A stretch of DNA of 64,000 bases from positions 1 to 64,000 of the forward strand of contig JALOTD010000010.1 of assembly GCA_025458105.1 (NCBI GenBank), in the 5' to 3' direction. The DNA is from Tabrizicola sp. (GTDB lineage: Bacteria > Pseudomonadota > Alphaproteobacteria > Rhodobacterales > Rhodobacteraceae). How positions within the stretch are numbered: the stretch's first letter is position 1; every line of letters starts with the position of its first letter. The notes below the pieces were generated by a model that made no database searches, was not told the origin of the DNA, and saw only the letters and a list, made by a program, of their open reading frames with translations. Of this stretch, positions 21,343 through 47,388 are shown one piece after another. Made by a program: the position numbers and the translations under genes.

Positions 21343-21353
21343 GGGGGGAGAGT

Positions 21354-22205: not shown

Positions 22206-22280
22206 TGTCCACGCGTGGACAGGATGATGAGACCCAAAGGATTCAAACACTTGGCTGTGGACATTTACCAAAACTTAACC
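22206..22280 (+). promoter_or_regulatory. Three-part palindrome/promoter element, copy 1
   Basis: TGTCCACGCGTGGACA (22206-22221, perfect palindrome), G, 28 bp, TTGGCTGTGGACATT (22251-22265), 9 bp, TTAACC (22275-22280). The same parts with the same spacing recur at 47314-47388, while the spacers are unrelated. TTGGCT and TTAACC are 18 bp apart, like -35/-10 boxes. The element ends 35 bp before the ATG of the MmeI-like gene, so it is probably that gene's regulated promoter, with the palindrome as an upstream activator or repressor site. Confidence 0.6.
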
Positions 22281-22315
22281 GATGGCCAGCATGAACCCGC
22301 AAAGGGGGGCCGCAC

Positions 22316-22390
22316 ATGACTCCGGATGAGTTCATCGCCAAATGGCGCCAGGTCGAGCTGAAGGAACGCACGGCCAGCCAGTCGCATTTC
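22316..22390 (+). pseudogene. MmeI-like restriction-modification enzyme, N-terminal 25 residues only
   Basis: MTPDEFIAKWRQVELKERTA... through SQSHF is the highly conserved start of class I SAM-dependent DNA methyltransferases of the MmeI/type IIL group (single-chain restriction-modification proteins). At 22390 it stops matching, and the frame passes into an IS1595 transposase remnant. The C-terminus of the same protein family reappears at 24262-24879. Nuclease, methyltransferase and most of the target-recognition parts, well over 600 residues, are missing. ATG 22316 follows AAAGGGGGGCC. Confidence 0.8.
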
Positions 22391-22393
22391 CGT

Positions 22394-22656
22394 TGTTGGC
22401 CATGCTTCTGTCGACCATGGCGCAGAGGAATACGTGCGCGGCGACGTGACCACGTACATCGTGGGGGATACTTCTCCATTGTCAGGCGCGGCATGAAGGG
22501 CGTCTACCAACATGCCAGCAAGAAACACCTGCACCACTACGCGGCGGAACTCGCATCCGCTTCAGAACCCGTGCGGCGAACGGTTTGAATGACATAGTTA
22601 GGGCGGATTTCGCGCTTAAGGGTGTTGGCGGGAAGCGAGTGCTTTACCGGGATTAG
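22394..22656 (+). pseudogene. IS1595-family transposase, C-terminal fragment with frameshifts
   Basis: Three frames together give the end of an ISXO2-like DDE transposase: HGAEEYVRGDVTT, then YFSIVRRGMKGVYQHASKKHLHHYAAEL, then GLNDIVRADFALKGVGGKRVLYRD and TAG 22654-22656. The last catalytic region is present but split by at least two small indels, and the N-terminal part is missing. It cannot produce transposase. Confidence 0.8.
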
Positions 22657-22691
22657 TTCGGCGTGTAGAATCTGCGCCGGAGGCGCAGAAG

Positions 22692-23552
22692 TTGCTGAAA
22701 CCAATCAGAATCACGGTTAAGGGAAGCGACGTTGGCGGCGAAGATGCGCCAACGGTTGAAGACCTCATGGCCCAAATTCTGGACTTTGTAGGCATCCTGA
22801 AGGGCGTAGAGGATGCGCTTGCCGAGGACGGCAAGAGAGAGATCGTGTGGCGAATCACTGACGTCACGCGAAATTCTCCATTGTCCTTCGAGATCACGCC
22901 ATTCCCAAAGACCTATGGGATGAATGTTGATCGGCGCGCCGCGCAGGTTGTCGCCTCTGCGGCTCAAGGCATTCAGGCATTGACCGCAGGTGAAAGCCGC
23001 CCTGCATTCTTCTCCGACACTTTGGTCGAGAAGGTCGAACACCTGCATGAACGTGTCACCAACGGTTTGGCGACCACGACAGTTGACTTTTCCGACTACC
23101 CGGAAGCACCAGCCGTCGAGATTTCCAAACCGAATGCTGCAAGGCAGGTTTCCGTCATCAAGGCCTACAGGGCACCGCGCGCTGTTCCACACAAAGAACT
23201 GGGGTCTGTTGAGGGGACGATCAGCCGTGTTGAACTAGACGCCCGCGAGCGGCCCGTGATATGGCTTAAGACCCGGCTAGATGGCCAAAGTGTCAAGTGC
23301 GTTGCGAACGACGACGCGCTTGATCGGATTGGGCACTATGAAGTCGGAGAAGTCCTAAAGGGACTGCGGATCATGGTTTTCGGGCTTATCACATACAAGG
23401 ACTTGGAAGAAATCGCGTCCGTTGATGTCGAAGGTGTCCATGTCTTCGCGGATGATTCCGAACTGCCTGACCTCGACAAAATTGTAGACCCGGGCTTCAC
23501 GAAGGGCGTCGAATCCTCGGCATTCTTGGAGGCCTTAAGACAGAATGGTTAA
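22692..23552 (+). CDS. Unknown protein co-translated with a PIN-domain protein
   Basis: 286-residue protein with no family I recognise. The N-terminal third is helical (VEDLMAQILDFVGILKGVEDALAEDG). Residues about 170-260 (GSVEGTISRVELDARERPVIWLKTRLDGQSVKCVANDDA...GLITYKDLEEIASVDVEGVHVF) alternate short strands and could be an OB-like barrel. TTG 22692 is chosen because it follows GGAGGCGCAGAAG; CTG 22695 would be equivalent. Its stop overlaps the PIN gene start by 8 bp (ATGGTTAA), so the pair is coupled. It is a transposon passenger with lower GC than its surroundings. A partner or antitoxin of the PIN protein is an inference from the coupling. Confidence 0.7.
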   Translation: MLKPIRITVKGSDVGGEDAPTVEDLMAQILDFVGILKGVEDALAEDGKREIVWRITDVTRNSPLSFEITPFPKTYGMNVDRRAAQVVASAAQGIQALTAGESRPAFFSDTLVEKVEHLHERVTNGLATTTVDFSDYPEAPAVEISKPNAARQVSVIKAYRAPRAVPHKELGSVEGTISRVELDARERPVIWLKTRLDGQSVKCVANDDALDRIGHYEVGEVLKGLRIMVFGLITYKDLEEIASVDVEGVHVFADDSELPDLDKIVDPGFTKGVESSAFLEALRQNG

Positions 23553-24078
23553 GCCTCTGAGGATCTACTGGGATGCATGCGCCTGGATCGCGTTTATAGC
23601 CGAAGAGAAGGCAATCCCTACGAAAACTGCCAGCCCTGAGAACCGCTATGCAATGTGCCTTAACGTTTTGGAGGCGGCGCGAAAGGGGAAGTATGAGATT
23701 GTCACCTCGGCATTTACGCTCGCTGAGGTGTGCAAGAGTCCTGAAGTGGTAAGCAGTCCGATAGACAATTTGGCAGCGTTCTTCGAGCGCAGCTACATTC
23801 TCGTCGTGCCGGTGGACCTATCTATCGGTCGCCGCGCGCAGGCAATGCAGGCTTCTGGCTTGGTGACCTTGAAGCCAGCAGACACAGTGCATTTGGCGTC
23901 TGCGCAAAGAGCTAGGGTCGCGGAACTTCACACCTTTGACGATAAAATTCTGGCACTCGACGGGAAGGTTCTAGGTGCGGATGGGACTGCGATAAAGGTG
24001 TGTCGTCCTACCCAAGGAGTGCCATTGGGCCCGTTATTTGAGGAACCCAGCAATGAACCTAAACCAACAGCAGAGTGA
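23545..24078 (+). CDS. PIN-domain protein (putative RNase)
   Basis: 177-residue single PIN domain with a full acidic set: IYWDACAWIAF (first Asp), TLAEV (Glu), KPADTVHLASAQ (Asp) and HTFDDKIL (last Asp), the Mg-binding quartet of PIN ribonucleases such as VapC. The hydrophobic FIAEEKAI loop and C-terminal tail are longer than in VapC. It overlaps the upstream unknown gene by 8 bp and is carried on the IS1595-type remnant, so it may be a toxin, an addiction module or a defence effector. No classical short VapB-type antitoxin is next to it. Confidence 0.85.
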   Translation: MVKPLRIYWDACAWIAFIAEEKAIPTKTASPENRYAMCLNVLEAARKGKYEIVTSAFTLAEVCKSPEVVSSPIDNLAAFFERSYILVVPVDLSIGRRAQAMQASGLVTLKPADTVHLASAQRARVAELHTFDDKILALDGKVLGADGTAIKVCRPTQGVPLGPLFEEPSNEPKPTAE

Positions 24079-24183
24079 CCGTTTCAAGAAGCTGCCCGTC
24101 AGCTAGAGTGCGATGACGACGAAACGCGCTTCGATGCGAAGCTAATGAAGATCGTGAAGGCTCCAAGGCCAAAGGACGACTAA
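24053..24183 (+). pseudogene. Small transposon-associated ORF, one-base frameshift
   Basis: From ATG 24053 the frame reads MNLNQQQSDRFK, then needs one extra base to continue EAARQLECDDDETRFDAKLMKIVKAPRPKDD, TAA 24181-24183. This about 43-residue acidic/basic protein type is common at the 3' end of ISXO2-like elements. Without correction it terminates at 24105. It overlaps the PIN gene end. Function unknown. Confidence 0.55.
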
Positions 24184-24261
24184 ATCAAGACGTGATCCGG
24201 CCTATACCGCCGGGGTTGGATCGCGCTTGGCGGCTGGCTTGTCAAATTTATTACTGCCCAA

Positions 24262-24879
24262 TCTAGGGTGATTGTGACCCCTAGGCTTGGAAAACATCGC
24301 GTGTTTGTTTGGTTGGAGACCTCCGCACTTCCAGATAGCGCCGCTTTTGCCATCGCCCGCGACGATGACACGACCTTCGGCATCCTGCACTCGCGGTTTC
24401 ATGAGCTTTGGGCCTTGCGGATGGAGACCTCTCTGGAGGACCGGCCGCGCTATACCCCCTCGACCACCTTCGAGACCTTCCCCTTCCCGGAAGGCCTGAC
24501 CCCGGACATCCCCGCAAGGGACTATGCGGATGACCCCCGGGCCGTGGCGATTGCGGCGGCGGCGGCGCGGTTGAATGAGTTGCGGGAGAACTGGTTGAAC
24601 CCCTCGGACCTGATCCAGCGGGTGCCGGAGGTGGTGCCGGGGTATCCCGACCGCATCCTCCCGGTGGACGACAAGGCGGCGGCGGTCCTGAAGACGCGGA
24701 CGCTGACCAACCTTTACAACCAGCGCCCGGCCTGGCTGGACCAAGCTCACAAGGCGCTCGACCAGGCGGTGGCAGAGGCTTATGGCTGGGGCGAGGACTG
24801 GCGCGCGGGGATGGGCGAGGACGAGATCCTCGCGCGGCTTTTCCGGCTGAACCAGGCGCGGGCAGCGGCGCAGGGGTAG
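24262..24879 (+). pseudogene. MmeI-like restriction-modification enzyme, C-terminal fragment
   Basis: About 205 residues of the target-recognition and C-terminal helical part of a class I DNA methyltransferase: VIVTPRLGKHRVFVWL, DDDTTFGILHSRFHELWALRM, SLEDRPRYTPSTTFETFPFPEGLTPDIPA, NLYNQRPAWLDQAHKALDQAVAEAYGW. It belongs with the N-terminal piece at 22316; the catalytic middle was displaced by the transposon remnant. GTG 24268 could initiate, but no DNA-binding plus catalytic unit remains. GC returns to the genomic level here. Confidence 0.85.
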
Positions 24880-24982
24880 CGCATTCCCGCTGGCCATGTG
24901 ACGGATTTGCCGCTACTCTGATCCGAAGACCCGGGGAACACATCCGGGCTTGAGGCAGAACAGGCGTATCAGGCGGTATCCC

Positions 24983-26146
24983 ATGACTGAGATGGTCTAT
25001 GGCTCCAACCCCGTGCGGGTGACGGAGCCGGTCCTTCCCCGCTGGTGGCGGACAATCGACAAGTGGACGCTGACGAGCGTCTTTGTGCTGTTCGGGATCG
25101 GGCTGCTTCTGGGGCTGGCGGCAAGTGTGCCGCTGGCCACGCGCAACGGGCTGGAGCCGTTCTTCTACGTGCAACGGCAGGCCTTCTTCGGCGGCGTGGC
25201 GCTGGCGGTGATGATCGGCATCTCGATGATGTCGCCGGACATGGTGCGCAGGCTTGGGGTCCTGGGGTTTGCGGTGTCGCTGGTGGCCTTGATGCTGCTG
25301 CCGCTTCTGGGGACGGATTTCGGCAAGGGGGCGGTGCGGTGGTTCAGTCTGGGGTTTGCCAGCGTCCAGCCGTCCGAGTTCCTGAAGCCTGGCTTCGTGA
25401 TCGTGACGGCCTGGCTGATCGCCGCGGCGCAGGATCTGAACGGGCCGCCGGGGCGGACGGTGAGTTTCGCGCTGATGCTGCTGGTGGTGGGGTTCCTGGC
25501 GATGCAGCCGGACTTTGGCCAGTCGGCGCTGATCATCTTCGCCTGGGGGGTGATCTATTTCGTGGGCGGTGCGCCGATGACGCTGATCGTGGTGATCGGG
25601 GGCATCGTGGGCGTGGCGGGGCTGGTGTTCTACGAAAGCTCCGAACACTTCGCGCGGCGGATCGACGGGTTCCTGAGCCCGGACGTGGACCCGCGCACGC
25701 AGCTGGGGTACGCGGCGAACGCGATCCAGGAGGGCGGGTTCTTCGGAGTGGGCGTGGGCGAGGGGCAGGTCAAGTGGTCGCTGCCGGACGCGCATACCGA
25801 TTTCATCATCGCGGTCGCGGCCGAGGAATACGGGCTGATCCTGGTGCTGGTGATCCTGGCTTTGTACGGGGTGATCGTGGTCCGGTCGCTGGCGCGCCTG
25901 TTGCCCGAGCGCGACCCGTTCGCGCGGCTGGCGGGCGCGGGGCTTGCGTGCATCTTCGGCGTGCAGGCGATGATCAACATGGGTGTTGCGGTGCGGCTTC
26001 TGCCGGCGAAGGGCATGACGCTGCCCTTCGTGAGCTATGGCGGGTCATCGGTCATCGCGGCGGGGATCACGATGGGGATGCTTCTGGCGCTGACACGCCA
26101 CCGTCCGCGCGGACAGATGAGCGACGTCTTCCGGCGGGGGCGGTGA
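24983..26146 (+). CDS. ftsW: Peptidoglycan polymerase FtsW
   Basis: 387-residue SEDS-family glycosyltransferase with about ten membrane helices that polymerises lipid II at the division septum. VQPSEFLKPGFVI, QPDFGQSALI, AHTDFIIAVAAEEYGLI (extracytoplasmic catalytic Asp region) and LPFVSYGGSSVIAAGITMGMLL are diagnostic. ATG 24983 (MTEMVYGS) is preferred over an ATG at 24950. First gene of the division cluster here, followed by a REP-like repeat and murG. MraY/MurD genes that usually precede ftsW are not in this window's order; the broken restriction-modification locus sits there instead. Confidence 0.95.
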   Translation: MTEMVYGSNPVRVTEPVLPRWWRTIDKWTLTSVFVLFGIGLLLGLAASVPLATRNGLEPFFYVQRQAFFGGVALAVMIGISMMSPDMVRRLGVLGFAVSLVALMLLPLLGTDFGKGAVRWFSLGFASVQPSEFLKPGFVIVTAWLIAAAQDLNGPPGRTVSFALMLLVVGFLAMQPDFGQSALIIFAWGVIYFVGGAPMTLIVVIGGIVGVAGLVFYESSEHFARRIDGFLSPDVDPRTQLGYAANAIQEGGFFGVGVGEGQVKWSLPDAHTDFIIAVAAEEYGLILVLVILALYGVIVVRSLARLLPERDPFARLAGAGLACIFGVQAMINMGVAVRLLPAKGMTLPFVSYGGSSVIAAGITMGMLLALTRHRPRGQMSDVFRRGR

Positions 26147-26208
26147 TGGCTGTGCGTGGCCCTTGTGATCTTCCTCTTTACGGTGATCTTCCCCTTCACT
26201 GTGGTCTT

Positions 26209-26274
26209 CCCCCTCACCCCGGCCCTCTCCCCCGGGGGGAGAGGGAGGCGCGGGTTGCCGAGGGAGGTCCCGGA
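26209..26274. repeat. REP-like repeat overlapping the murG ribosome binding site
   Basis: CCCCCTCACCCCGGCCCTCT... through GGGGAGAGGG (26209-26245) matches the arm at 16731-16771. The similarity continues into the spacer (GGCGC-GTTGCC...GGTCCCGG). The GGGAGGTCCCGGACA before ATG 26277 is therefore repeat-derived and serves as the murG ribosome binding site. A hairpin in this repeat could modulate murG translation. Confidence 0.75.
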
Positions 26275-26276
26275 CA

Positions 26277-27371
26277 ATGAGCGGCAAGCTTCTGTTGATC
26301 GCGGCGGGGGGCACCGGCGGGCACATGTTCCCCGCGCAAGCCCTGGCCGAGGCGATGCTGGCGCGGGGCTGGCGGGTGAAGCTCTCGACCGATGACCGCG
26401 GTGCGCGCTATGCGGGCGGGTTTCCCGAAATGGTGAAGGTCGAGAAAGTGGCCAGCGCCACCTTTGCGCGAGGGGCGGCGGCGGCGAAAGTTCTGGTGCC
26501 CTTCCGCATTCTGGGCGGCATTCTCGACGCCATCGTCTCGCAACTGCGGGACAGGCCTGCGGTGGTGGTGGGCTTCGGCGGCTATCCGTCGATTCCGGCC
26601 CTGTCGGCGGCCTGGCTGTTGCGGCGGCCAAGGATGATCCATGAACAGAACGGCGTCCTGGGGCGGGTGAACCAGGTGTTCGCGCGCCGGGTCGGCAAGG
26701 TGGCTTGCGGCACCTGGCCCACGACCTTGCCCTCGGGGGTAGACGGCGTGCCCACGGGCAACCCCGTGCGCGGGGCGGTGCTGGAGCGCGCGGCCGCCCC
26801 CTACATCCCGCCCGGCGATTATCCGATGTCTTTGGTGGTGATCGGCGGCAGTCAGGGGGCGAGAGTGCTGTCGGACCTAGTGCCGGCGGCGGTGGCCCTG
26901 CTGCCCGAGGGTCTGCGGGCGAACCTGCGGGTGGCGCATCAGGCACGGGACGAAGATGCAGCCCGCGCTGCGGCGGCCTATGAGGCGGCGGGGGTGCGCG
27001 CCGAGATTGCCTCCTTCTTCAGCGACATCCCGCGCAGGCTTTCCGAGGCGCAGCTGGTGATCAGCCGGTCGGGGGCTTCGTCCGTGGCGGATATCAGCGT
27101 GATCGGGCGTCCTGCGATCCTGATCCCCTTTGCGGCAGCGACGGGCGATCATCAGACGGCGAATGCCAAGGGGTTGGTTGACGCTGGGGGAGCGGTAGTG
27201 GTGCAGGAGAAGGCGCTTGACGCAAGCGCGCTTGCAGGCCACATCGCCGCGATCCTGGAAGACCCGCACAAGGCCGAGACGATGGCGCGGGCGGCCCTGG
27301 GCGAGGGCAAGCCGGACGCGACCGCGCGACTGGTGGCCCTGGTAGAAGAGTTGGGCGGAGAGACGCAATGA
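26277..27371 (+). CDS. murG: UDP-GlcNAc:lipid I N-acetylglucosaminyltransferase MurG
   Basis: 364-residue GT-B enzyme that makes lipid II on the inner membrane face. [15 protein letters not shown] (first Gly-rich loop), [48 protein letters not shown] and [37 protein letters not shown] (UDP-GlcNAc site) are all in order. The stop overlaps the murC start (ATGA), so the two are coupled. Complete. Confidence 0.96.
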
Positions 27372-28777
27372 ACGCAGCAACCAAGCTTCCGCTTGAACTG
27401 GGACCGATCCATTTCGTCGGCATCGGCGGGATCGGGATGTCGGGCATCGCCGAGGTCCTGATGACGCTGGGCTATGCGGTGCAGGGGTCGGACGCAAAGG
27501 CGTCGAAGATCACCGACCGGCTGGTCAAGCTCGGGGCCACGTTCTTCGAGGGGCAGCGGGCCGAAAACATCGGCGACGGCGTGTCGGTCGTGGTGATCTC
27601 GAGCGCCATCAAGAAGGGCAACCCGGAACTGGAAGAGGCACGGCGGCGGAAGTTGCCGGTGGTGCGCCGGGCGGAGATGCTGGCGGAACTGATGCGGCTC
27701 AGGTCGAACATCGCGATTGCCGGGACGCATGGCAAGACGACCACCACGACGATGGTGGCGACGCTTCTGGACAAGGGCGGGTTCGATCCGACCGTCATCA
27801 ACGGGGGCGTGATCCATGCCTATGGCTCGAACGCTCGGGCCGGGGCGGGGGAGTGGATGGTGGTGGAGGCGGACGAATCCGACGGGTCCTTCAACCGGCT
27901 GCCAGCGACCATTGCCATCGTGACCAACATCGACCCCGAGCATATGGAACATTGGGGGACCTTCGACAATCTGCGCAAGGGATTCCTGGATTTCGTGTCG
28001 AACATCCCGTTCTATGGGCTGGCCGTGTGCTGCACGGACCACCCGGAGGTGCAGGCGCTGGTGGGCCGGGTGACGGATCGCCGGGTGGTGACCTTCGGCT
28101 TCAACGCTCAGGCCGACGTGCGGGCGGTGAACCTGCGGTACGAGGCTGGCGTCGCGCATTTCGACATCGCCTTGCAGGGCGAGGATCAGGTGATCGAAGG
28201 GTGTACTCTGCCGATGCCAGGCGACCACAACGTGTCGAACGCGCTGGCAGCGGTGGCCGTGGCGCGGCATCTGGGGATGAAGCGCGAAGAGATCCGCGAG
28301 GCTTTGGCGGGGTTTGCGGGCGTGAACCGGCGTTTCACCAAGGTGGCCGAGGTCGGGGGCGTCACGATCATCGACGATTACGGCCACCATCCGGTGGAGA
28401 TCGCGGCGGTGCTGAAAGCCGCGCGGCAGGCGACGAAAGGGCGGATCATCGCGGTGCACCAGCCGCACCGCTATACGCGGCTCTCAAGCCTCTTCGAGGA
28501 GTTCTGCACCTGTTTCAATGAGGCGGATGTGGTGGCCATCGCCGATGTCTATGCGGCGGGCGAGGAGCCGATCGCCGGGGCATCCCGTGACGACCTTGTC
28601 GCGGGCCTGATCGCGCATGGCCATCGTCATGCCCGCGCGATGCTGGATGAGGCCGATCTGGCGCGGCTGGTCCGTGAACAGGCCCGGCCGGGGGATATGG
28701 TGGTCTGCCTGGGGGCCGGGACAATCAGCGCCTGGGCCAATGCATTGCCCGCCCGGCTGATGGGCCAGGCGGCATGA
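27368..28777 (+). CDS. murC: UDP-N-acetylmuramate--L-alanine ligase
   Basis: 469-residue Mur ligase adding the first amino acid of the peptidoglycan stem. [18 protein letters not shown]-loop [36 protein letters not shown] (Mg ligands) and [18 protein letters not shown] are all present. Overlaps murG by 4 bp. After its stop come small membrane-protein genes rather than murB directly. Confidence 0.96.
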
Positions 28778-28817
28778 TTGGGACGGATTCTCGGCGTAAA
28801 TCCATAGGTGTGGCTGC

Positions 28818-29084
28818 ATGAGCACCCCGCTGATCCTGGGTGCCTTGTGGGTTGTGGCCTCGGCCATCGTGGCGATGCTGCCGATGCGGCGGCAAATGGT
28901 GCCGGGGATTGCGCTGCTGATTGCGGCCCCGGTTCTTCTGGTCTGGATCGGTTATGCCCATGGCTGGCTTTGGCTGGCAATCGGCCTTTTTGCCTTTGTC
29001 TCGATGTTCCGCAACCCGCTGCGCTATTTCCTGCGCCGGGCGCTGGGCCGTCCTGCTCCGCTGCCGAAAGAGCTGGAGAAGTGA
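28818..29084 (+). CDS. DUF2484 family membrane protein (first copy)
   Basis: 88-residue protein with three hydrophobic helices (LILGALWVVASAIVAMLP; GIALLIAAPVLLVWIGY; WLAIGLFAFVSMF) and the FRNPLRYFLRRALGRP tail typical of DUF2484. This family sits between murC and murB in Rhodobacterales, so a minor envelope role is suspected but unproven. The stop overlaps the next gene's start (TGATG). Confidence 0.8.
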   Translation: MSTPLILGALWVVASAIVAMLPMRRQMVPGIALLIAAPVLLVWIGYAHGWLWLAIGLFAFVSMFRNPLRYFLRRALGRPAPLPKELEK

Positions 29085-29326
29085 TGGTTCCCCTGGGCCT
29101 CTGCATGGTCTGGCTGATCGTGGCGAATGTGATCGCCATGTTCCCCTCGCGCGATTATCATTGGCGCGCGGCCTATGTGCTGATTGCCATCGGCGTGCCG
29201 CTTCTGGGCTGGGTGACCTGGGAACTGGGGCCGATCGTCGGCATGGTGGTGCTGGCGGCGGGGGCCTCGATCCTGCGCTGGCCGGTGATCTTCTTCTGGC
29301 GCTGGCTGCGTCGGCGATTGGGGTAG
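29084..29326 (+). CDS. DUF2484 family membrane protein (second copy)
   Basis: 80-residue paralogue-like protein with the DUF2484 pattern: MVWLIVANVIAMFPSRDYHWRAAYVLIAIGVPLLGWV, GMVVLAAGASILRWPVIFFWRWLRRRLG. Three short helices, basic end. ATG 29084 overlaps the stop of the first copy, so the pair is coupled. Function unknown. Confidence 0.75.
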   Translation: MVPLGLCMVWLIVANVIAMFPSRDYHWRAAYVLIAIGVPLLGWVTWELGPIVGMVVLAAGASILRWPVIFFWRWLRRRLG

Positions 29327-29329
29327 GGG

Positions 29330-29611
29330 ATGTTCGGGCGCGAGAACGAGTTGCTGACCACTTTGCTTGCCATGGGGCTGGCCACGGCGGCGCTGACCGC
29401 GCTCATCACCTGGCTTGCGGGCTGGCGCTATGGCCGTCGCCGCGCGATCGTGGTGCCGATCCTGGCGCTGGTGGCTCTGGGCATCCTTATGGTGCGGGTC
29501 GCGGGCGAGGGCGGGGACCCGGCGCTGGACTTTGGCGCCTTCGGGATGATCTATGCCGGGCCGGTGATCGCCGGCGGGATGATCGGCCTGGTCCTGTCGC
29601 GGCGGGGCTGA
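29330..29611 (+). CDS. Small membrane protein of unknown function
   Basis: 93 residues with three hydrophobic segments (LLTTLLAMGLATAALTALITWLAG; AIVVPILALVALGILMV; GMIYAGPVIAGGMIGLVL) and an Arg-rich cytoplasmic loop GWRYGRRRA. It starts 3 bp after the second DUF2484 gene and is likely in the same transcript. No family recognised. Confidence 0.6.
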   Translation: MFGRENELLTTLLAMGLATAALTALITWLAGWRYGRRRAIVVPILALVALGILMVRVAGEGGDPALDFGAFGMIYAGPVIAGGMIGLVLSRRG

Positions 29612-29745
29612 GGGCCTGCGGAGCCCCGATGTCCCGAGAAGGCGCGGCGGGTAAGGGAAAGCCGACCGCCGGGCCTGTTGCGCGGGGCTATGGCCCGCCG
29701 TTAGGCTTGGCGCGGGGCAATTCAGATCCCGGGAGCAAGCAGATC

Positions 29746-30036
29746 ATGGAACCCATGCTGATCGTTGCCGCCATCGGAATTGGCGCTGTCGCCGCCACGA
29801 TCTCGGGTGCCCTTGCCAGGCGGACGGGGTTTCTGGCGGGCGCGATCCTGCCCGCCCTGATGATCGGGTTCACTGTCTACTCGAATGGAATGACCGTGCA
29901 CCCTGAAGGCCGGATGGGCCAGGGTATGCTGGTCGTCTTCATCCTGATCCCGCTGTCGGTCGTCATCACTCTAGGTTGGGCCGTGGGCCTTTGGCTGCGG
30001 ACGGCAGACAAGCGGCGACAGACCGACGACCGGTGA
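29746..30036 (+). CDS. Small membrane protein of unknown function
   Basis: 96 residues with three hydrophobic segments (PMLIVAAIGIGAVAATISGAL; FLAGAILPALMIGFTVYSNG; MLVVFILIPLSVVITLGWAVGLWL) and a charged tail. Same general design as the preceding gene but no clear homology. ATG 29746 is chosen; ATG 29755 is equally possible. The 134 bp before it contains no other gene. Confidence 0.55.
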   Translation: MEPMLIVAAIGIGAVAATISGALARRTGFLAGAILPALMIGFTVYSNGMTVHPEGRMGQGMLVVFILIPLSVVITLGWAVGLWLRTADKRRQTDDR

Positions 30037-30162
30037 TTGTCCCTTGCGCGGGGCGGGACGGCGGGATGCGCGTCTGCCTTGGGTGATTGACGGGATGTGA
30101 CGCAACGCGCATCAAGCTCGCAGGGTCTGGCAAGTGGCGCGGTGCCAAGAGACGAGGCGCGG

Positions 30163-31722: not shown

Positions 31723-31837
31723 TCTTCGGGGGCAAGGCTCTCGGAAATCTCTGCCCTATTCCAGAATGCCGCTTCCAGTCGGGACCGTTCTAGATAACAC
31801 CTTGCGTCTGCCCCTCAGCCCCGGCTACCACCCGCAT

Positions 31838-32705: not shown

Positions 32706-32732
32706 CAAATCACGGGTCGGCAACAGACCCGG

Positions 32733-37670: not shown

Positions 37671-37697
37671 GCCGCGCTGACACATGTCCAGCAAGAG

Positions 37698-37725
37698 GGC
37701 CCGAGAAATCGGGCCTTTTTCTTTT
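37698..37725 (+). terminator. Rho-independent terminator after ftsZ
   Basis: GGCCCGA-GAAA-TCGGGCC stem-loop (37698-37715) followed by T5CT4. A tight 7-bp stem with a GNRA loop and a T tract, 28 bp after the ftsZ stop. It separates ftsZ from lpxC. Confidence 0.9.
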
Positions 37726-37813
37726 GAAACAATGTGTTGGCGTTTGTTTCAGGGCTGTCACATACCGTCACAAAGAGTGAGTTGAGATCGCCCCCTCGCC
37801 CGAATACCTAAGA

Positions 37814-38782: not shown

Positions 38783-38935
38783 AGCGCCACAGCTTCGCAC
38801 GCGAAAGTCACGAAAGGCGTTTTGCGCCCCGGATTTTTCTGTGCTAGGACAAACCAAATCGCCCGGTCGGCAGGTCTTTCCGGCCTACCGAGGCGCGGCA
38901 GCAGCGCTGGGGCAGCAGGGTTGAACAGGCGGGTT

Positions 38936-39778: not shown

Positions 39779-39782
39779 GGAT

Positions 39783-39800
39783 GGTGCGCAGTCGCGCACC
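39783..39800. repeat. Short hairpin repeat between bamD and recN
   Basis: GGTGCGC-AGTC-GCGCACC followed by CTACGCC. This 7-bp perfect hairpin with its GCGCACCCTACGC flank is a frequent short intergenic repeat in Rhodobacteraceae. It occupies the 34-bp gap and could affect recN expression. Confidence 0.55.
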
Positions 39801-39812
39801 CTACGCCTGACC

Positions 39813-41456
39813 ATGCTGCGTAGCCTGGATATCCGCGATGTCCTGATCATCGACCGGCTGAGCCTGGAGCTGCAGCCGGGCCTGAACGTGCTGACCGGAG
39901 AGACGGGGGCCGGCAAGTCGATCCTGCTGGATGCCCTGGGCTTTGTCCTTGGCTGGCGGGGCCGGGCCGATCTGGTCCGCCAGGGCGCCGCGCAGGGCGA
40001 GGTGACGGCCGCCTTCGACCTGCCCCCCACCCATGCCGCCCGCACGGTTCTGGAAGAGGCCGGGATCGAGGCAGAGGACGAGCTGATCCTGCGCCGGGTC
40101 AACGCTGCCGACGGTCGCAAGACCGCCTTCATAAACGACCGCCGCGTGTCGGGCGAGGTTCTGCGCGACCTGTCTGACCATCTGGTCGAACTGCATGGCC
40201 AGCACGACGACCGGGGTCTTCTGAACCCGCGCGGGCACCGGGCCTTGCTGGATGCCTTCGCGGGCCTTGACCTTGCCGCCTTGCGCAGCGCCTGGGCCGC
40301 GCAGCGTCAGGCCCGCGCTGCCCTGGCCGAAGCCGAAGGTGCGCTGGCCCGTGCGGCTGCGGAAGAGGATTTCCTGCGCCATGCCGTGGCGGAACTGGAC
40401 AAGCTGAACCCTGAGGCCGGAGAGGACGAGGCGCTGGATGCCCGCCGCCGCCTGATGCAGGGCGGCGCGCGGATCCGCGAGGATGTGGCCAAGGCGCTGG
40501 CTGCCTTGTCAGAAGACGGGGCCGAGGGGCGGATGCGCGATGCCCTGCGTTGGCTGGAAGGTGCCTCGGACCGCGCCGAGGGGCGGCTTGACGGGGCGCT
40601 CGATGCGCTGTCGCGTGCGCTCATCGAACTCGGCGAGGCGCAGGCAGGGGTGGAAGGGGCGCTGGAGGCGCTGGATTTTGACCCCGGTGAGCTTGAGCGG
40701 GTCGAGGAGCGCCTGTTCGCGATCCGGGCGCTGGCGCGCAAGCATGGTGTTTTGCCGGACGATCTGGGCGGCTTTGCCGAAGGGCTGCGGGTGCGGCTGG
40801 CGGCGATCGACGGTGGGGCGGCGGGGATTGCGAAGCTTGCCAAGGCAGTGGCCGAGGCTGAGGCCGCTTATGCGACCGAGGCGGCCCGGGTGACCAAGGC
40901 TCGGGTGGCGGCGGCAAAGCGGCTGGATGCGGCGATGGCGGCTGAACTGGCGCCGCTGAAAATGGAACGCGCGGTCTTTGCGACCGAGATTTCGGCAGGC
41001 GAGGCCGGGCCAGAGGGCGTGGATGCGGTGACCTTCACAGTGGCGACCAACCCTGGTGCGCCCTCGGGCCCGCTGAACCGCATTGCCTCGGGCGGGGAGT
41101 TGTCGCGGTTTCTGCTGGCGCTGAAGGTTTGCCTCACGGGCGACAGCCCCGGCCTGACGCTGATCTTCGACGAAATCGACCGGGGCGTCGGCGGGGCGAC
41201 AGCGGATGCCGTGGGGCGGCGACTGAAGGCGCTGGCGCAGGGGGCCCAGGTGCTGGTGGTGACGCATTCGCCCCAGGTCGCTGCCTTTGGCGCGCGGCAC
41301 TGGCGGGTGGAAAAGCGCGTGGCCGGGGGACAGACGCTGTCGACCGTGACCGCGCTGCCGCCCGAGGAGCGGGTGGAGGAAATCGCCCGCATGCTGGCCG
41401 GTGACACGGTGACCGAGGCCGCGCGGGCGGCGGCTCGGGCGCTTCTGGCGGGGTAG
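39813..41456 (+). CDS. recN: DNA repair protein RecN
   Basis: 547-residue SMC-like ATPase for double-strand-break repair. Walker A TGETGAGKSILLDAL, a central coiled-coil region (about 150-350, Ala/Glu/Arg-rich), signature ASGGELSRFLLALK and Walker B LTLIFDEIDRGVGG. Full length. It follows bamD in the usual order; a hairpin repeat separates them. Confidence 0.95.
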   Translation: MLRSLDIRDVLIIDRLSLELQPGLNVLTGETGAGKSILLDALGFVLGWRGRADLVRQGAAQGEVTAAFDLPPTHAARTVLEEAGIEAEDELILRRVNAADGRKTAFINDRRVSGEVLRDLSDHLVELHGQHDDRGLLNPRGHRALLDAFAGLDLAALRSAWAAQRQARAALAEAEGALARAAAEEDFLRHAVAELDKLNPEAGEDEALDARRRLMQGGARIREDVAKALAALSEDGAEGRMRDALRWLEGASDRAEGRLDGALDALSRALIELGEAQAGVEGALEALDFDPGELERVEERLFAIRALARKHGVLPDDLGGFAEGLRVRLAAIDGGAAGIAKLAKAVAEAEAAYATEAARVTKARVAAAKRLDAAMAAELAPLKMERAVFATEISAGEAGPEGVDAVTFTVATNPGAPSGPLNRIASGGELSRFLLALKVCLTGDSPGLTLIFDEIDRGVGGATADAVGRRLKALAQGAQVLVVTHSPQVAAFGARHWRVEKRVAGGQTLSTVTALPPEERVEEIARMLAGDTVTEAARAAARALLAG

Positions 41457-41858
41457 GGGTTGGACCTCTTCAGCGCGGGCGTGATTGCGTCGGCGCGCGG
41501 GCCGAAAGGCGTGGCGTCGCGCGCCCGGCGTGAGTCGTGGCACAGGGTTAACGTCACCTTTCCACTCCGAGCGTAGAGACGGAAGGAAGACAGAAGGAAG
41601 ACCGATCCAAGACGTAGGCCTATCCCCTTCGGTTCCAGATTAAGCCAACGCCCGCAAAGCCCTATGTCCGGAGGTTGATGTCCGGTCGAACCAGCGCCTT
41701 CCGTTGCATGCGTCATCGGCACTCCACCCGTCCGCTGCTGAACGCTGCGGCGGAAATGAAAGACCTTTGCGCTCTATGCATGGCGGGGCTTCCCCTTCGG
41801 CGCTACAATGCTGCACTGCGGCGTCCTATGTTTCGGGCAAGACGAAAGGACTAAACTC
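41457..41858. other. 402-bp intergenic region
   Basis: Between recN and the DUF3563 gene. No frame with coding character; short inverted repeats only. The large gap suggests an untranslated leader or small RNA upstream of the DUF3563 gene, but no conserved structure is recognised. Confidence 0.4.
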
Positions 41859-42020
41859 ATGCTGACCCTTCTCAAGACGCTCATCCCCTCGGCCCGCGAA
41901 AAGGCTATCTCGGAACGCGAACGGGCCTATCTCGAGGCCTCGGTCTCGCGCTATGATCTGGAACGCCGCGAGCGGGAAATCGACAGCGGCCTCTTTCGCC
42001 AGCCGCACCCCTATTTCTGA
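41859..42020 (+). CDS. DUF3563 small protein
   Basis: 53 residues: MLTLLKTLIPSAREKAISERERAYLEASVSRYDLERREREIDSGLFRQ. A short hydrophobic start then a highly charged helix, matching DUF3563. Function unknown. ATG 41859 preceded by GAAAGGAC. Its last 10 bp overlap the end of the convergent FAD oxidoreductase gene. Confidence 0.75.
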   Translation: MLTLLKTLIPSAREKAISERERAYLEASVSRYDLERREREIDSGLFRQPHPYF

Positions 42021-43396
42021 TCCAAGGGCCCCGGTACGATCTTGCCGGGGTTCATCAGGCCCAAGGGGTCGAGCGCGGCCTTCACCGCACCCATGACTTG
42101 CCAGGCTGCTCCGTGTTCGGCCGCCATGTAGGGCCGCTTGCCGAAGCCCACGCCATGTTCGCCAGTGATCGTGCCACCCAGGCGCAAGGCGCGCTCGGCC
42201 ATGCGTCCGGCCAGCGCCTTGGCGGCTGCCACTTCGCTGGCGTAGTCCGGGTAAACCATCAGAATCGCGTGAAAATTCCCGTCGCCGACATGACCAAGGA
42301 TCGGCCCCGGGATGCCCGATCCGGCGATGTCGGCGCGCGTTTCTTCGACCGCCTCGGCCAGCCGCGAGATCGGGACGCAGACATCTGTCACCACCGCCTT
42401 GGCCCCGGGGCGCGAGGCCAGGATGGCTCGGTAGGCCGCATGCCGCGCGGCCCAGAGGCGCGTCCGATCCTCTTGCGCGGAGGCCCAGTCCAGCCCTTCG
42501 GCGCCGAACTCTGCCGCCAGCTCGCGAAAGCGGCGCACATCCTCGGCCAGACCCTCCGGGTGGCCGTGGAACTCGACCAGAAGCTGCGGCTGGATCGGCA
42601 ACGACAGCCCGGAATAGGCATTGCAAGCGGCCACAGTCTCGGCATCCAGGAATTCGATCCGCGCGGGCGTGAGGTCCATCTGCATAGTGGCCATCACGCA
42701 ATCGACCGCCGCTGCAACCGAGGGGAATGCGGCCACCGCCGTCATCACCGCCTCAGGCTGACCGTGCAACCGCAGCGTCAATTCGGTCATCAGGCCCAGC
42801 GTCCCTTCCGAGCCGACGAAAAGCGCCGTCAGGTCATAGCCCGCGGCCGATTTCGGCGCGCCCGATCCGGTGCGGATCACTTGCCCACCGCTCAGCACGA
42901 CCTCTAACCCCTTGATATTGTCGCGCATTGTGCCGTAGCGCACTGCCGTCGTGCCACTGGCGCGCGTCGCGGCCATCCCCCCGATCGAAGCATCGGCCCC
43001 CGGATCGACCGGGAACATCAGCCCCGTGGTCCTGAGTTCGCGGTTCAGCGCCTCACGCGTAATCCCGGGCTGAACGCGGACCAGCCGGTCCTCGGGCCGA
43101 ACCTCCAGCACGGCGGCCATCTCGCGGAAGTTCACCACGACCCCGCCCGCCAAAGCCAGCGCATGACCCTCGAGCGAGGTCCCGGCCCCCCAGCCGATCA
43201 GTGGCATGCGGTGGTCATGCGACCATCGGGCGAGGGCTGCGACCTCGGCGGTTTGTTTTGGAAAGACAACGGCATCCGGCAGACCTGCTGCCACCAGGCT
43301 TTCGCTTTGGGCGTGTTCGGACAAGACCGGGGCGGCGGTTGACAGACGGTCGCCAAACAGCGCGCGCAGGTCGGAGAGGGCAGGATCGGTCAGCAT
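42011..43396 (-). CDS. FAD-binding oxidoreductase (D-lactate dehydrogenase/GlcD-like)
   Basis: 461-residue flavoprotein with a FAD_binding_4 domain (VVFPKQTAEVAALARWSHDHRMPLIGWGAGTSLEGHALA; DPGADASIGGMAATRASGTTAVRYGTMRDNIKGLEVVL) and a FAD-oxidase C domain ending GFGKRPYMAAEHG...LMNPGKIVP. It oxidises a 2-hydroxyacid such as D-lactate, with electrons passing to quinone or cytochrome; the exact substrate is unknown. Stand-alone gene divergent from purQ and convergent (10-bp overlap) with DUF3563. Complete. Confidence 0.87.
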   Translation of the reverse strand: MLTDPALSDLRALFGDRLSTAAPVLSEHAQSESLVAAGLPDAVVFPKQTAEVAALARWSHDHRMPLIGWGAGTSLEGHALALAGGVVVNFREMAAVLEVRPEDRLVRVQPGITREALNRELRTTGLMFPVDPGADASIGGMAATRASGTTAVRYGTMRDNIKGLEVVLSGGQVIRTGSGAPKSAAGYDLTALFVGSEGTLGLMTELTLRLHGQPEAVMTAVAAFPSVAAAVDCVMATMQMDLTPARIEFLDAETVAACNAYSGLSLPIQPQLLVEFHGHPEGLAEDVRRFRELAAEFGAEGLDWASAQEDRTRLWAARHAAYRAILASRPGAKAVVTDVCVPISRLAEAVEETRADIAGSGIPGPILGHVGDGNFHAILMVYPDYASEVAAAKALAGRMAERALRLGGTITGEHGVGFGKRPYMAAEHGAAWQVMGAVKAALDPLGLMNPGKIVPGPLDQK

Positions 43397-43492
43397 GGGG
43401 TCAGCCTATCCCTTTATTGGCAGGGCGCAAGCTCTGGCTCCACCTTGCGCTTTGGGCTATAGGCGGGGTCAGTGAAACAAGGGGAGTCGCCC

Positions 43493-44161
43493 ATGAAAGC
43501 TGCCGTCATCACCTTCCCGGGGTCGAACTGCGACCGCGACCTTGCGGTGGCCTTCGAGGCCGCAGGGTTCGATGTGGCGCGGGTCTGGCACAAGGACACC
43601 GAACTGCCAAAAGGCGTGGACGTGGTGGGTATTCCTGGCGGCTTCAGCTTTGGCGACTACTTGCGCTGCGGAGCCATCGCGGCACAGTCGCCGATTGCGC
43701 AGGCGGTCCGGTCCCATGCCGAACGGGGCGGGTTTGTCCTGGGCATCTGCAATGGCTTTCAGGTCGTCACGGAAATGGGCCTGTTGCCGGGCGTCCTGAT
43801 GCGGAACGCCACGCTGAAGTTTGTCTGTCGCACCGTGACCTTGCGGGTCGCGACAACGGACAGCGCCTACACTTCGGGGTATGTCCTTGGCCAGAAGATT
43901 CGCATTCCGGTCGCCCACCACGACGGCAACTACACCATTGATGCCGATGGGCTGGCGCGGTTGCAGGGCGACGACAGGATCGCCTTTACCTACTGCGACA
44001 ACCCGAATGGCAGCATGGCCGACATTGCGGGCGTTCTGTCGGAAAACCGCCGGGTCCTGGGGATGATGCCACACCCGGAACGCGCGACGGAGGCCGCTTT
44101 GGGCAGCGAAGACGGGCGGGCGCTCTTTGCTGCGATCATGGGCGGGATGGCGCTGGCCTGA
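43493..44161 (+). CDS. purQ: Phosphoribosylformylglycinamidine synthase glutaminase subunit
   Basis: 222-residue class I glutamine amidotransferase of FGAM synthase. [35 protein letters not shown], nucleophile [11 protein letters not shown] and C-terminal [11 protein letters not shown] (His/Glu of the triad). It works with PurS (55113-55352) and PurL (outside). ATG 43493 has AAGGGGAGTCGCCC upstream. Complete. Confidence 0.96.
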
Positions 44162-44207
44162 CGGCCTTCGGCTTGAGGGGGGGGCGAAGCCGCCCTAGTC
44201 TTGCCGC

Positions 44208-45965
44208 ATGACGGAAATCTCTGCCTCTACAGCCGCAAACGATCCGGGAATGTCCTGGCGCGCAAAGCTTGCCGTTGGGCTCTTGGTGCTTGTGGCGATT
44301 GCCGTCGTGCTGGTGTCGAACCGGCTTCTGACCGACCGCTACACGGCGGATACCCGCAGCCGGGCTGAAGTGCGGCTGGCGCTTTACACCGGGAACCTGA
44401 TGTCCGAACTGCAGCGGACGTCAGTCGTGCCTTTGCTGCTGTCGCGCGACCCCGAGCTGGTGCGGGCCCTGCGGGAGGGGAATTTCTCCTCTACTTCGGC
44501 CAAACTGATGGCGCTGCAATCGCAGATCGGCGTGGCGTCGATCCGGCTTCTGGACCGCGACGGCCGGGTGGTCGGCGCCACCAATCGCAACATCCTTGGC
44601 ACCAATAACCGCAACGAACTGTACTTCGTCGACGCGCAGCGGACCAAGGAAACGATCTTTACCTCGGTCAAGCGGGATGCCGGGGGCTATGATTTTGTTT
44701 ATTCGCGGGCGGTCATGGACGATGCCCGGGTGGTCGGGGCCATTGTGGTTTCGGTCGATCTGATGAAATACGAACGGGCCTGGGCCGGGTTGCAGGACGC
44801 GGTGCTGGTGACCGACAGCGAGGGAACCGTGATTCTGGCGACCGAAGCGCTGTGGCGCGGTCAGCCCGTCAGCGAAGCCTTGGCGTTGCGGGATCCGCCC
44901 TCGGCCATTTCGCGCGCGCTCCGGGCGACCGCAGACTGGGCGCAAGAGCCGCCCGATGCCTACGTCCGTGGCGAAGCGGTGATGAAAACCGAGGCGCGGG
45001 TGCCGTTCCGAGGCTGGAAGATCCAGACATTTACCGCCTATGGCTCGGTCCGTGAGCAGGTGAACGGAATCCTTGCGCTGGAGATCATGGGTTTTGCCAT
45101 CCTTATGGCGTTCACCTTCTACGTCCTGTCGCGCCGTGCCTGGTCGCGATCACTGACCTTCCAGCGGGAATCGGCGGAACTGCGGGCGCTGAACGCACGT
45201 TTGCAGCGCGCGATTGCGGAACGCGAGAAGGTGCAGAAAGACCTGGAAGTCGCGGAACTCACGCTGGCGCAGTCGTCAAAGCTCGCGGCCCTGGGCGAGA
45301 TGTCAGCGGCCGTGAGCCACGAGTTGAACCAGCCGCTGGCCGCGATGAAGACCTATCTTGCCGGGGCGCGCCTGCTGTTGCAGCGCAGGCGCCCGGACGA
45401 GGCCTTGTCGTCCTTCCAGCGGATTGACGACCTGATCGAACGGATGGGCGCGATCACGCGGCAGTTGAAGTCTTACGCGAGGAAGGGCGGAGAAGCCTTT
45501 GAAGAGGTTGATCTTCGGGCTTGCGTCTCTTCGGCGCTGGCGATGATGGAGCCGCAGCTTAAAGCACGCGTTGTCAAGATCAGCCGGGGCCTGCCGCGTC
45601 AGCCGGTGATGGTGATGGCAGACCGCATTCGGCTGGAGCAGGTCATCATCAACCTTCTGCGCAACGCGCTGGATGCAACGAAAGACACCAAGGACCCGCA
45701 GATCGACATTCTCTTGTCGGCGGGGGAAACCGCGACCCTGACGGTGCGCGACAACGGCCACGGGATTGCCGATCTCGAAAACCTGTTCGAACCCTTCTAC
45801 ACGACGAAAAAGCCGGGTGAGGGCGTGGGGCTTGGCCTTGCGATCTCAAGCGGCATCGTCACCGATCTGGGCGGCCGTCTGACCGCGCGGAACGGGGACG
45901 GGGGTGGTGCGGTATTCGAGGTGCAGTTGCCAATCCTAGGTAACAAACAGGAAGCAGCAGAATGA
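44208..45965 (+). CDS. DctB-like sensor histidine kinase
   Basis: 585 residues: TM1 (about 22-44, LAVGLLVLVAIAVVLVSNRLL), a periplasmic double-Cache-type sensor (about 50-290), TM2 (about 290-312, ILALEIMGFAILMAFTFYVLS), a coiled coil, HisKA with phospho-His in SAAVSHELNQPLAAMKTY, N-box INLLRNALDATKD, G1 VRDNGHGI and G2 GEGVGLGLAIS. This is the DctB architecture for C4-dicarboxylate sensing; the ligand is not certain. The downstream response regulator starts 10 bp later and is its partner. No dct transporter lies in the window. Confidence 0.87.
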   Translation: MTEISASTAANDPGMSWRAKLAVGLLVLVAIAVVLVSNRLLTDRYTADTRSRAEVRLALYTGNLMSELQRTSVVPLLLSRDPELVRALREGNFSSTSAKLMALQSQIGVASIRLLDRDGRVVGATNRNILGTNNRNELYFVDAQRTKETIFTSVKRDAGGYDFVYSRAVMDDARVVGAIVVSVDLMKYERAWAGLQDAVLVTDSEGTVILATEALWRGQPVSEALALRDPPSAISRALRATADWAQEPPDAYVRGEAVMKTEARVPFRGWKIQTFTAYGSVREQVNGILALEIMGFAILMAFTFYVLSRRAWSRSLTFQRESAELRALNARLQRAIAEREKVQKDLEVAELTLAQSSKLAALGEMSAAVSHELNQPLAAMKTYLAGARLLLQRRRPDEALSSFQRIDDLIERMGAITRQLKSYARKGGEAFEEVDLRACVSSALAMMEPQLKARVVKISRGLPRQPVMVMADRIRLEQVIINLLRNALDATKDTKDPQIDILLSAGETATLTVRDNGHGIADLENLFEPFYTTKKPGEGVGLGLAISSGIVTDLGGRLTARNGDGGGAVFEVQLPILGNKQEAAE

Positions 45966-45975
45966 AGAGGTCCCC

Positions 45976-47304
45976 ATGGCCCGCGCAATGAAAGTGGCGA
46001 TCGTCGACGACGAGGCCGACATGCGGCAGTCGATCAGCCAGTGGCTGGCATTGTCGGGGTTCGACACGGAAACCTATGCCAGTGCCGAGGACGCGCTGAA
46101 GGTGATCGGGCCGGATTTTCAAGGCGTTGTGGTCAGCGACATCAAGATGCCGGGAATGGACGGGATGGCGTTCCTCAAGCGCCTGATGGGGCAAGACAGC
46201 GGCTTGCCGGTCATCATGATCACCGGCCACGGCGATGTACCGATGGCGGTCGAGGCGATGCGGGTGGGGGCTTTCGATTTCCTGGAAAAGCCGTTCAATC
46301 CGGACCGGATGACGGAACTGGCGAAGAAGGCAACTCAGGCACGGCGGATGACGCTGGACAACCGTGCCCTGCGGAAGGAGCTGTCCGACGGCTCGACCAT
46401 CATCAAGAAGTTGATCGGAACCTCTCCGGCGATGGATCGGCTGAGGGAGGATATCCTCGATCTGGGTCAGGCGGACAGCCATGTGCTGATTGACGGCGAG
46501 ACAGGGACCGGCAAGACGTTGGTTGCGCATGCCCTGCATGCAGTCGGGCCCAGGGCTTCCAAGAAGTTCGTTGCGATCTCATGTGCGGCCTGGTCCGAGG
46601 ACCAGCTGGCCGCGCGGCTGTTCGGGCCGGCAGAAGATGGGACGCTGCCCTTGGTCGAGGAAGCCCGCGGCGGGACCTTGTGCCTGGAGGACATCGAGGC
46701 GCTGCCGAATGCGTTGCAAGCGCGGCTTTTGACCTTTATCAACGACCAGGGTCTGCCGCCCGAGACGCGGATCATCGCGATCTGCAATCAGCACGCGCCC
46801 GATACGACGTTGGAGCAGGTTCTGCGGCCGGATCTCTTCTACCGGCTGGGGGCGATGACGATCCTTCTTCCGCCGCTTCGGATGCGCGGAGAAGATATTC
46901 TGACGCTGTTCACCCGCCTGTCGGAACAGTTCGCCGAGGAGTATGGCTGCGACGCTCCGCAGGTGACCGCGCAGGAAGCCGCGCAGCTGTTGCAGGCGCC
47001 TTGGCCGGGCAACGTGCGGCAATTGGTCAACATCGCCGAGCGGGCGGTGTTGCAGAACCGGCGCGGCTCGGGGTCGATCGCAAGCCTTCTGATGGCCGAC
47101 AATGAGGCGGCGGGGCCTGCGCTGACGACGGAGGGCAAGCCGCTGAAGGACTATGTCGAGGCCTTCGAAAGGATGCTGATCGACAACACGATGCGGCGGC
47201 ACAAAGGGTCGATCGTGGCGGTGATGGAAGAGCTGTGCCTGCCCCGCCGGACCCTGAACGAGAAGATGGCCAAGTATGGGCTGACCCGGGGTGACTATGT
47301 CTGA
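45976..47304 (+). CDS. DctD-like response regulator lacking the sigma-54 GAFTGA loop
   Basis: 442 residues: receiver (acidic DDE near 11, phospho-Asp in VVVSDIKMPGMDG, Lys in FLEKPFNPDRM), AAA+ domain with Walker A DGETGTGKTLVAHAL, and a Fis-type HTH at the end (HKGSIVAVMEELCLPRRTLNEKMAKYGL). Between Walker A and B, where enhancer-binding proteins carry GAFTGA, the sequence is shorter: ARLFGPAEDGTLPLVEEARGGTLCLEDIEAL. The Walker B is LCLEDIE instead of LFLDEI. It therefore probably does not open sigma-54 complexes, as is known for Rhodobacter capsulatus NtrC, and may act with sigma-70. Confidence 0.85.
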   Translation: MARAMKVAIVDDEADMRQSISQWLALSGFDTETYASAEDALKVIGPDFQGVVVSDIKMPGMDGMAFLKRLMGQDSGLPVIMITGHGDVPMAVEAMRVGAFDFLEKPFNPDRMTELAKKATQARRMTLDNRALRKELSDGSTIIKKLIGTSPAMDRLREDILDLGQADSHVLIDGETGTGKTLVAHALHAVGPRASKKFVAISCAAWSEDQLAARLFGPAEDGTLPLVEEARGGTLCLEDIEALPNALQARLLTFINDQGLPPETRIIAICNQHAPDTTLEQVLRPDLFYRLGAMTILLPPLRMRGEDILTLFTRLSEQFAEEYGCDAPQVTAQEAAQLLQAPWPGNVRQLVNIAERAVLQNRRGSGSIASLLMADNEAAGPALTTEGKPLKDYVEAFERMLIDNTMRRHKGSIVAVMEELCLPRRTLNEKMAKYGLTRGDYV

Positions 47305-47313
47305 CCCTTTGCC

Positions 47314-47388
47314 TGTCCACGCGTGGACAGGCAGTTTGTCTTTCGTGAAATCAATGGTTTGGCTGTGGACATTCAGGTTTCGTTAACC
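47314..47388 (+). promoter_or_regulatory. Three-part palindrome/promoter element, copy 2
   Basis: TGTCCACGCGTGGACA (47314-47329; extending to a 22-bp perfect palindrome with GCC/GGC flanks, 47311-47332), G, 28 bp, TTGGCTGTGGACATT (47359-47373), 9 bp, TTAACC (47383-47388). Parts and spacing are identical to 22206-22280. It starts 9 bp after the response-regulator stop and ends 103 bp before the unknown membrane protein gene. The hairpin could also act as a terminator, but there is no T tract. Confidence 0.6.

Follow-up and report, generated by a model that had tools for sequence, protein, structure and literature searches.

Two places in the 64,000-nucleotide stretch of Tabrizicola sp. DNA under study (the window) carry the same three-part element, in which a perfect palindrome, a 15-bp box and TTAACC follow one another with equal spacers, and this raises the question of what such an element does and to which of its neighbouring genes it belongs. 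The first-pass annotation had described both copies in these terms, and a re-reading of the window letters agrees with it (Table 1). Indeed, with up to three mismatches allowed, the palindrome occurs at three places in the window, two of them exact, compared with 0.31 expected. The annotation had also taken the genes to the right as the controlled partners of the element; however, the nearest gene is in both cases the one on the left, whose stop codon precedes the palindrome by 3 nt at copy A (TAG, 22200-22202) and by 9 nt at copy B (TGA, 47302-47304). The frames found on the right side, 22692-23552 and 47429-48394, gave no Pfam match. The terminator call made for the extended hairpin of copy B is weak when taken alone, as shuffles of the region average 0.8 such sites. 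By eye, a short G+C-rich sequence resembling GGGGGCCGCAAAGG is seen near the element at 22296-22316 of the window and at L019, L030, L053 and L056; it adjoins, or lies within, the filler of several copies and is sometimes part of a second hairpin.

Table 1. Coordinates of the two copies of the element, and of the genes that end into them, in the window
Feature	Position	Strand	Basis or remark
Gene ending into copy A: Amidohydro_2 (PF04909), amidohydrolase	21219-22202	+	
Copy A palindrome/hairpin TGTCCACGCGTGGACA	22206-22221	+	terminator scan: not terminator-like
Copy A IHF-type core ATTCAAACACTTG	22241-22253	+	12/13 match to WATCAANNNNTTR, the consensus as we assume it
Box TTGGCTGTGGACATT	22251-22265 (copy A), 47359-47373 (copy B)	+	window letters
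Conserved box GTGGACATT	22257-22265 (copy A), 47365-47373 (copy B)	+	column count
Copy A TTTA-N7-TTAACC, 11-bp repeat, CtrA-like spacing	22264-22280	+	
TTAACC	22275-22280 (copy A), 47383-47388 (copy B)	+	window letters
Gene ending into copy B: NtrC-type response regulator, sigma-54 activator, Fis-type HTH	45976-47304	+	
Copy B extended 11-pair hairpin around TGTCCACGCGTGGACA, then TTTGTCTTTC	47309-47334	+	terminator-like by scan
Copy B palindrome TGTCCACGCGTGGACA	47314-47329	+	window letters
Copy B IHF-type core AATCAATGGTTTG	47349-47361	+	13/13 match to WATCAANNNNTTR, the consensus as we assume it
Copy B TTCA-N7-TTAACC	47372-47388	+	

The two-copy observation is real but much too small, as scanning this genome and its relatives for the pattern yields a genome-wide family of which the window copies are members. 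In the whole genome (G000; 4.11 Mb in 165 contigs) the exact palindrome is present at 67 places, against none for a reversed control; with up to two mismatches these figures become 87 and 1, and the palindrome followed by N30 and the box, with up to three mismatches, is found at 53 places (31 and 22 by strand) against none in the control. The same combined pattern gave no match in 60 relatives, 31 of them from the same genus. From G000 we fetched and oriented 62 exact copies, 61 of which score at least 12/22 against the box region (58 of these in the same register) and one of which scores 10; columns were then counted on 53 of the 62, nine being left out for a weaker score or a different register. 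The resulting element has about 75 bases and comprises, in this order, the stop codon, the hairpin, some 14-16 free bases, an IHF-type site WATCAANNNNTTR, GTGGRCRTT and TTHR-N7-TTAA. In terms of columns, the palindrome occupies positions 1-16 and the free bases approximately 17-30, with W-W-T-C-A-A-N4-T-T-R at 36-48, GTGGAC-R-TT at 52-60, TTHR at 59-62, seven free bases and TTAA at 70-73. TTAACC itself drifts among the copies, as it is also found as TTAAGG, GTAACC and CTAACC. The element is not a longer homologous repeat. The idea that its left arm pairs with the GTGGAC box was rejected, since by eye such pairing is not kept in species with GCGCC arms.

Across the 62 aligned copies the parts are alike and the filler is different, which bears out the earlier claim of conserved parts and spacing; the filler varies freely for the most part. 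That the spacers are entirely unrelated is a statement which stands for most of the filler but fails at element positions 36-48, where there is a core that fits what we take to be the IHF consensus, WATCAANNNNTTR. With a shift of one position allowed, 19 of the 62 palindrome-defined copies have no mismatch to this consensus, 32 have one, nine have two and two have six, so that 51/62 have at most one; by chance, such matches are seen in about 0.2% of windows taken at random from the fetched loci. The corresponding figures of 56/67 for the copies of this genome and 167/199 for those of other genomes come from sets gathered with the right-part matrix, in which conservation of the core is partly built in. 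The element contains a predicted IHF site, placed at a nearly fixed distance behind the hairpin.

For the most part, the element goes with the left-hand gene. Of 167 copies, 116 have the end of a coding frame no more than 30 nt from the hairpin (39/61 in G000 and 77/106 in other genomes), 84 of them at 0-4 nt (±1), compared with 12/158 in a mirror control on the right side; in the other 51 of the 167 no gene end lies within this distance. The 167 copies are those, out of 266 collected, that have 170 nt or more of upstream sequence and a hairpin scoring 4/5 or better, and the counts are not independent, because copies share ancestry and gene position. A simple gene caller, by which 11 of the 62 G000 copies also overlapped a called frame, places the left neighbour towards the element in 45 copies (35 of these genes ending 0-9 nt before it) and away from it in 12, with none called in five, and the right neighbour rightward in 22, leftward in 28 and uncalled in 12. 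By eye, the element stands behind ychF in 18 of 27 genus loci including that of this genome (17 of 26 others), with differing palindromes; it was not seen, again by eye, in 29 ychF loci fetched from other genera, although a copy of genome G301 lies behind an apparent ychF. At one ychF locus of another genus (L130, genome G067) a perfect palindrome TAACACGCGTGTTA is found right behind the stop codon without the usual right part, and perhaps represents another family. A regulon of one function was rejected: 28 of the 37 extracted left genes were scanned and 26 matched a family, without a theme. The families include EF-P, a class II synthetase (perhaps, as we presume, EpmA), RecR, MtaB, a GAPDH-like enzyme, CrtC, FliP, YchF, MoaE, BtuR and ZnuA.

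The letters of the hairpin differ between species. Within the genus, exact TGTCCACGCGTGGACA occurs 67 times in G000, seven times in G004, five in G015, once or twice in three more genomes and in none of 26, and exact GCGCCGCGCGCGGCGC occurs 36 times in G020, 28 in G001, 11 in G012, one to three times in six more and in none of 23 including G000; these are occurrences of the palindrome, not all of which were confirmed within elements. Among the fetched copies, 22/29 of those from G011 have TGTCCACGGTGGACA and 5/7 of those from G013 have TGTCCACAGTGGACA, and hairpin types are mixed in G023, G012 and G010. That one type is dominant in each of several species and differs between species implies that something reads or copies the sequence. 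By eye, extra GTCCACAGTGG units are present directly before the hairpin at L032 and L044, as if other hairpin types had been left there.

The right-hand part of the element was used to follow its spread. A sequence-only model built from 51 copies (R1) matches in 31 of the 32 Tabrizicola genus genomes, from at least 2 to at least 96 times per genome, the genome without a match being 80% complete. Pattern matches were obtained in 45 stretches, from Tabrizicola, Rhodobacter calidifons, Rhodobacter sp. SY28-1, MAGs of Rhodobacteraceae/Rhodobacterales, a 'Pseudomonadota' MAG and one Desulfamplus, the last of which the element matrix did not confirm. A second model (R2), made from 26 genus copies, five of G437 and one of G301, was applied with strict filters to 295 genomes of the family and matches 21 of them; among the 293 that were sampled outside the genus, 10 have at least 7 sites. 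Besides G000 and G001, there are 10 genera with at least 7 to at least 21 matches (including that of G301) and, among the matches listed, nine with one or two. As R2 holds the right-hand part only, the hairpin is an independent test in other genera, and a five-pair hairpin was found at the expected place in 19 of 26 loci fetched from 19 other genera, compared with 2.4 expected; of the remaining loci, three have 4/5 pairs (two with the usual theme) and four have 3/5. Five loci are without the theme hairpin, four of them from genomes with a single match, and for one of the five (L405) the match was not recovered in the hairpin check. The commonest form in other genera being GTCCCAC-N-GTGGGAC, the arms have, at the level of their letters, a family-wide theme, and genome G190 differs in having CCTGTGTTACAGG. 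At two G190 loci (L397 and L417) the right part is present and the hairpin place is occupied by CTGTGTTACA(A/G), not by the GTCC..GGAC theme. G437, from another genus, has exact TGTCCACGCGTGGACA at 49 places, the same palindrome as G000, and all five of its inspected copies have the IHF-type site. Such likeness of the arms across genera is more than a plain terminator needs.

We considered whether the hairpin acts as RNA or as a DNA site. In 199 copies from other genus genomes the outer pairs are complete (5/5) in 154, 4/5 in 40 and 3/5 in five, and in an earlier set (n=138), gathered with a similar finder, 5/5 pairs were present in 75%, compared with 5% in shuffled sequence. The median MFE of the 24-nt hairpin region is -7.8 kcal/mol for the 67 own copies and -9.4 kcal/mol for the 199 others, compared with -4.5 and -4.9 kcal/mol when shuffled. 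For 59 hairpins of the same length (three from G000), 96 cells changed on both sides compared with 41.3 in shuffles, and the covariation score was 0.539 compared with 0.184; none of 500 shuffles was as high in either measure, and sliding the arms lowers both. The pairs with double change (139/500 shuffles as high) and the further pair types (37/500) are unremarkable, and the 96.4% of paired cells is inflated by selection, as the set was limited to hairpins with 6 or more of the 8 possible pairs. RNAalifold found no structure in a 38-sequence alignment of mixed loop lengths, in which the arms are out of register, and an Rfam scan of nine loci gave no match with E up to 1. The non-Watson-Crick pairs of 198 copies from other genomes comprise 41 G-T, 15 A-C and 39 others (p 0.0007 for G-T against A-C if all are independent), T-G outnumbering its mirror image C-A by 23 to 7 and G-T outnumbering A-C by 18 to 8. 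Since a symmetric DNA site predicts equality, this excess suggests RNA on the strand of the left gene; by genome, G-T exceeds A-C in 11, the reverse holds in four and both are equal in six. The weak excess by genome and the empty RNAalifold result on mixed lengths mean that action of the hairpin as RNA rather than as a DNA site is favoured only moderately.

Put together, these results lead us to regard it as an even chance, or slightly better, that each copy is a mostly one-directional 3'-end element of the left gene, in which a terminator-like RNA hairpin is coupled to IHF-bent DNA. What can be read directly in the letters is the position, the pairing with species-specific letters, the conserved IHF-type site and the dozens of repeats per genome. 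The hairpin would act in the transcript, where it would end transcription or else protect or pace the 3' end, and IHF would bend the DNA some 20 bp downstream, which, given the size of the polymerase footprint, roughly matches the expected leading edge of an enzyme that has paused behind the hairpin. The IHF complex may then help to stop the polymerase and insulate the next, often convergent, gene, and some factor or process may read or copy the hairpin sequence. At odds with this explanation are the near loss of the T-run in G000, the 51 of 167 copies with no gene end close to the left, the 12 of 62 G000 copies whose left neighbour reads away and the fact that copy A is not terminator-like and copy B scores no better than shuffles. 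A fuller version, which we put forward only tentatively, would be a gene-end system of Rhodobacteraceae in which RNA hairpin and IHF-bent DNA stop RNA polymerase and a factor with drifting specificity reads the hairpin; the hairpins at dozens of gene ends would then change together, giving each species its own dialect.

The strongest competitor of the 3'-end element is a DNA operator, in which a dimeric protein with a specificity that changes between species binds the palindrome and forms, with IHF, a looped nucleoprotein complex that would organise the chromosome, act as an insulator or control supercoiling; the hairpin in the RNA would then be incidental. The theme shared by the arms across genera agrees with such an operator, as do the 67 exact palindromes in one genome and the 36 and 28 of another palindrome in two others, the near-fixed distance to the IHF-type site and the GTGGAC box, whose distance from the right arm in G000 is 42 bp, or roughly four turns of the helix; moreover, the mismatch counts by genome (11, 4, 6) do not settle RNA against DNA. 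Indeed, the preselection of the 59 hairpins for pairing and the weakness of the excess by genome slightly weaken the terminator-type reading and raise this one. However, the common loops have 5-6 nt, so the spacing of the arms varies, by 1-2 bp even within one genome, which sets them apart from a rigid operator. Also, the 23 T-G against 7 mirror-image C-A is not predicted by a symmetric DNA site, and the element is tied to the strand of the upstream gene. In view of this balance we consider the operator rather unlikely.

It is improbable, in turn, that the element is an interspersed repeat of mobile or selfish nature (REP/BIME or MITE) which has invaded gene ends and owes its uniformity to a copying enzyme of its own. 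The high copy number, the mostly intergenic location, the species-specific hairpin and the proximity to stop codons are as described for REPs in PMC12306157, PMC2817692 and PMC3733652. However, the RAYT/IS200 transposase family PF01797 was above the cut-off in none of the 32 genus genomes (two matches fell below it, none in G000), whereas 5 of the 14 control genomes, E. coli among them, gave a match, and the copies are not recent, because their filler differs while their parts are shared. The same gene-end position is, in addition, found in different species, one exact pattern had no match in viral contigs, and blastn with copy B found nothing in plasmid and phage collections.

The closest known thing to the element is the RIB/BIME-1 of E. 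coli, which also has an IHF-type site inside a repeat and stands at the 3' ends of transcription units; IHF-binding RIB repeats at such ends were reportedly described by Boccard and Prentki in 1993. The element appears to work like one, yet it is not classed as one, because its hairpin is single, a REP tag was not seen and no RAYT exceeds the cut-off. RIB/BIME-1 has two inverted REP palindromes around the IHF site, whereas here one hairpin is present, on the left only, accompanied by the extra GTGGRCRTT and TTHR-N7-TTAA boxes; by eye, none of the inspected copies has at the hairpin foot GTAG, CGTC or GGAG, which we take to be the REP tags (GTAG/GGAG or CGTC). According to PMC2817692, IHF interacts with the portion of BIME-1 between the REPs, and PMC12306157 reports for E. 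coli that ribosomes stall and translation falls when a REP is less than 16 nt away from the stop codon. The hairpin close behind the stop codon is a likeness to the REPs lying within 15 nt of stop codons, from which the element differs in being composite, with near-fixed spacing to an IHF-type site, and in having no recognised REP consensus; by analogy, lowered translation would be a second possible effect here. Intrinsic terminators share with the element the hairpin behind the stop codon; as to a T-run, TTT lies within 9 nt behind the hairpin in 98/194 copies of other species compared with 25.9 expected, but in G000 it is nearly gone (10/67 compared with 5.3 expected). The element further differs from them in that one hairpin dominates several genomes and an IHF-type site follows. 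The spacing of TTHR-N7-TTAA resembles the CtrA consensus TTAA(N7)TTAA (PMC6180460), but its first half is degenerate and it is placed at the 3' ends of unrelated genes, so that a putative CtrA-like site is a lead only. As the first-pass annotation had supposed, the element seems undescribed: no description was found in the literature searched, which extends to few subscription journals, and the matches listed by an exact-string search look unrelated to it.

The original proposal of a promoter/operator with TTGGCT and TTAACC as -35/-10 boxes for the genes to the right is very improbable. The 18-bp spacing and the resemblance of TTAACC to a CtrA half site speak for it; against it are a simple consensus scan for sigma-70-type promoters that has no match at the boxes of copies A and B (one match lies elsewhere, at 22643-22671), right neighbours that point both ways and the drift of TTAACC itself.

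If the 3'-end element is what we propose, a composite signal that terminator finders based on T-runs miss would mark many genes' ends in some of the Rhodobacteraceae, and IHF would gain a role at the ends of genes throughout the genome. With dozens of hairpins changing in step between sister species, it would also offer a clear natural example of regulatory sites evolving in concert, pointing to a reader or to a copying process that can now be searched for.

Two further observations were made along the genus genomes. The loci L324 and L325, from G018 and G023, hold sub-threshold matches to a Y1 transposase, of nearly equal score. One 5-kb stretch carries two elements, L068:3178-3254 (+) and L068:1403-1480 (-), one behind a class II synthetase gene, perhaps that of EpmA, and the other, on the opposite strand, behind elongation factor P.
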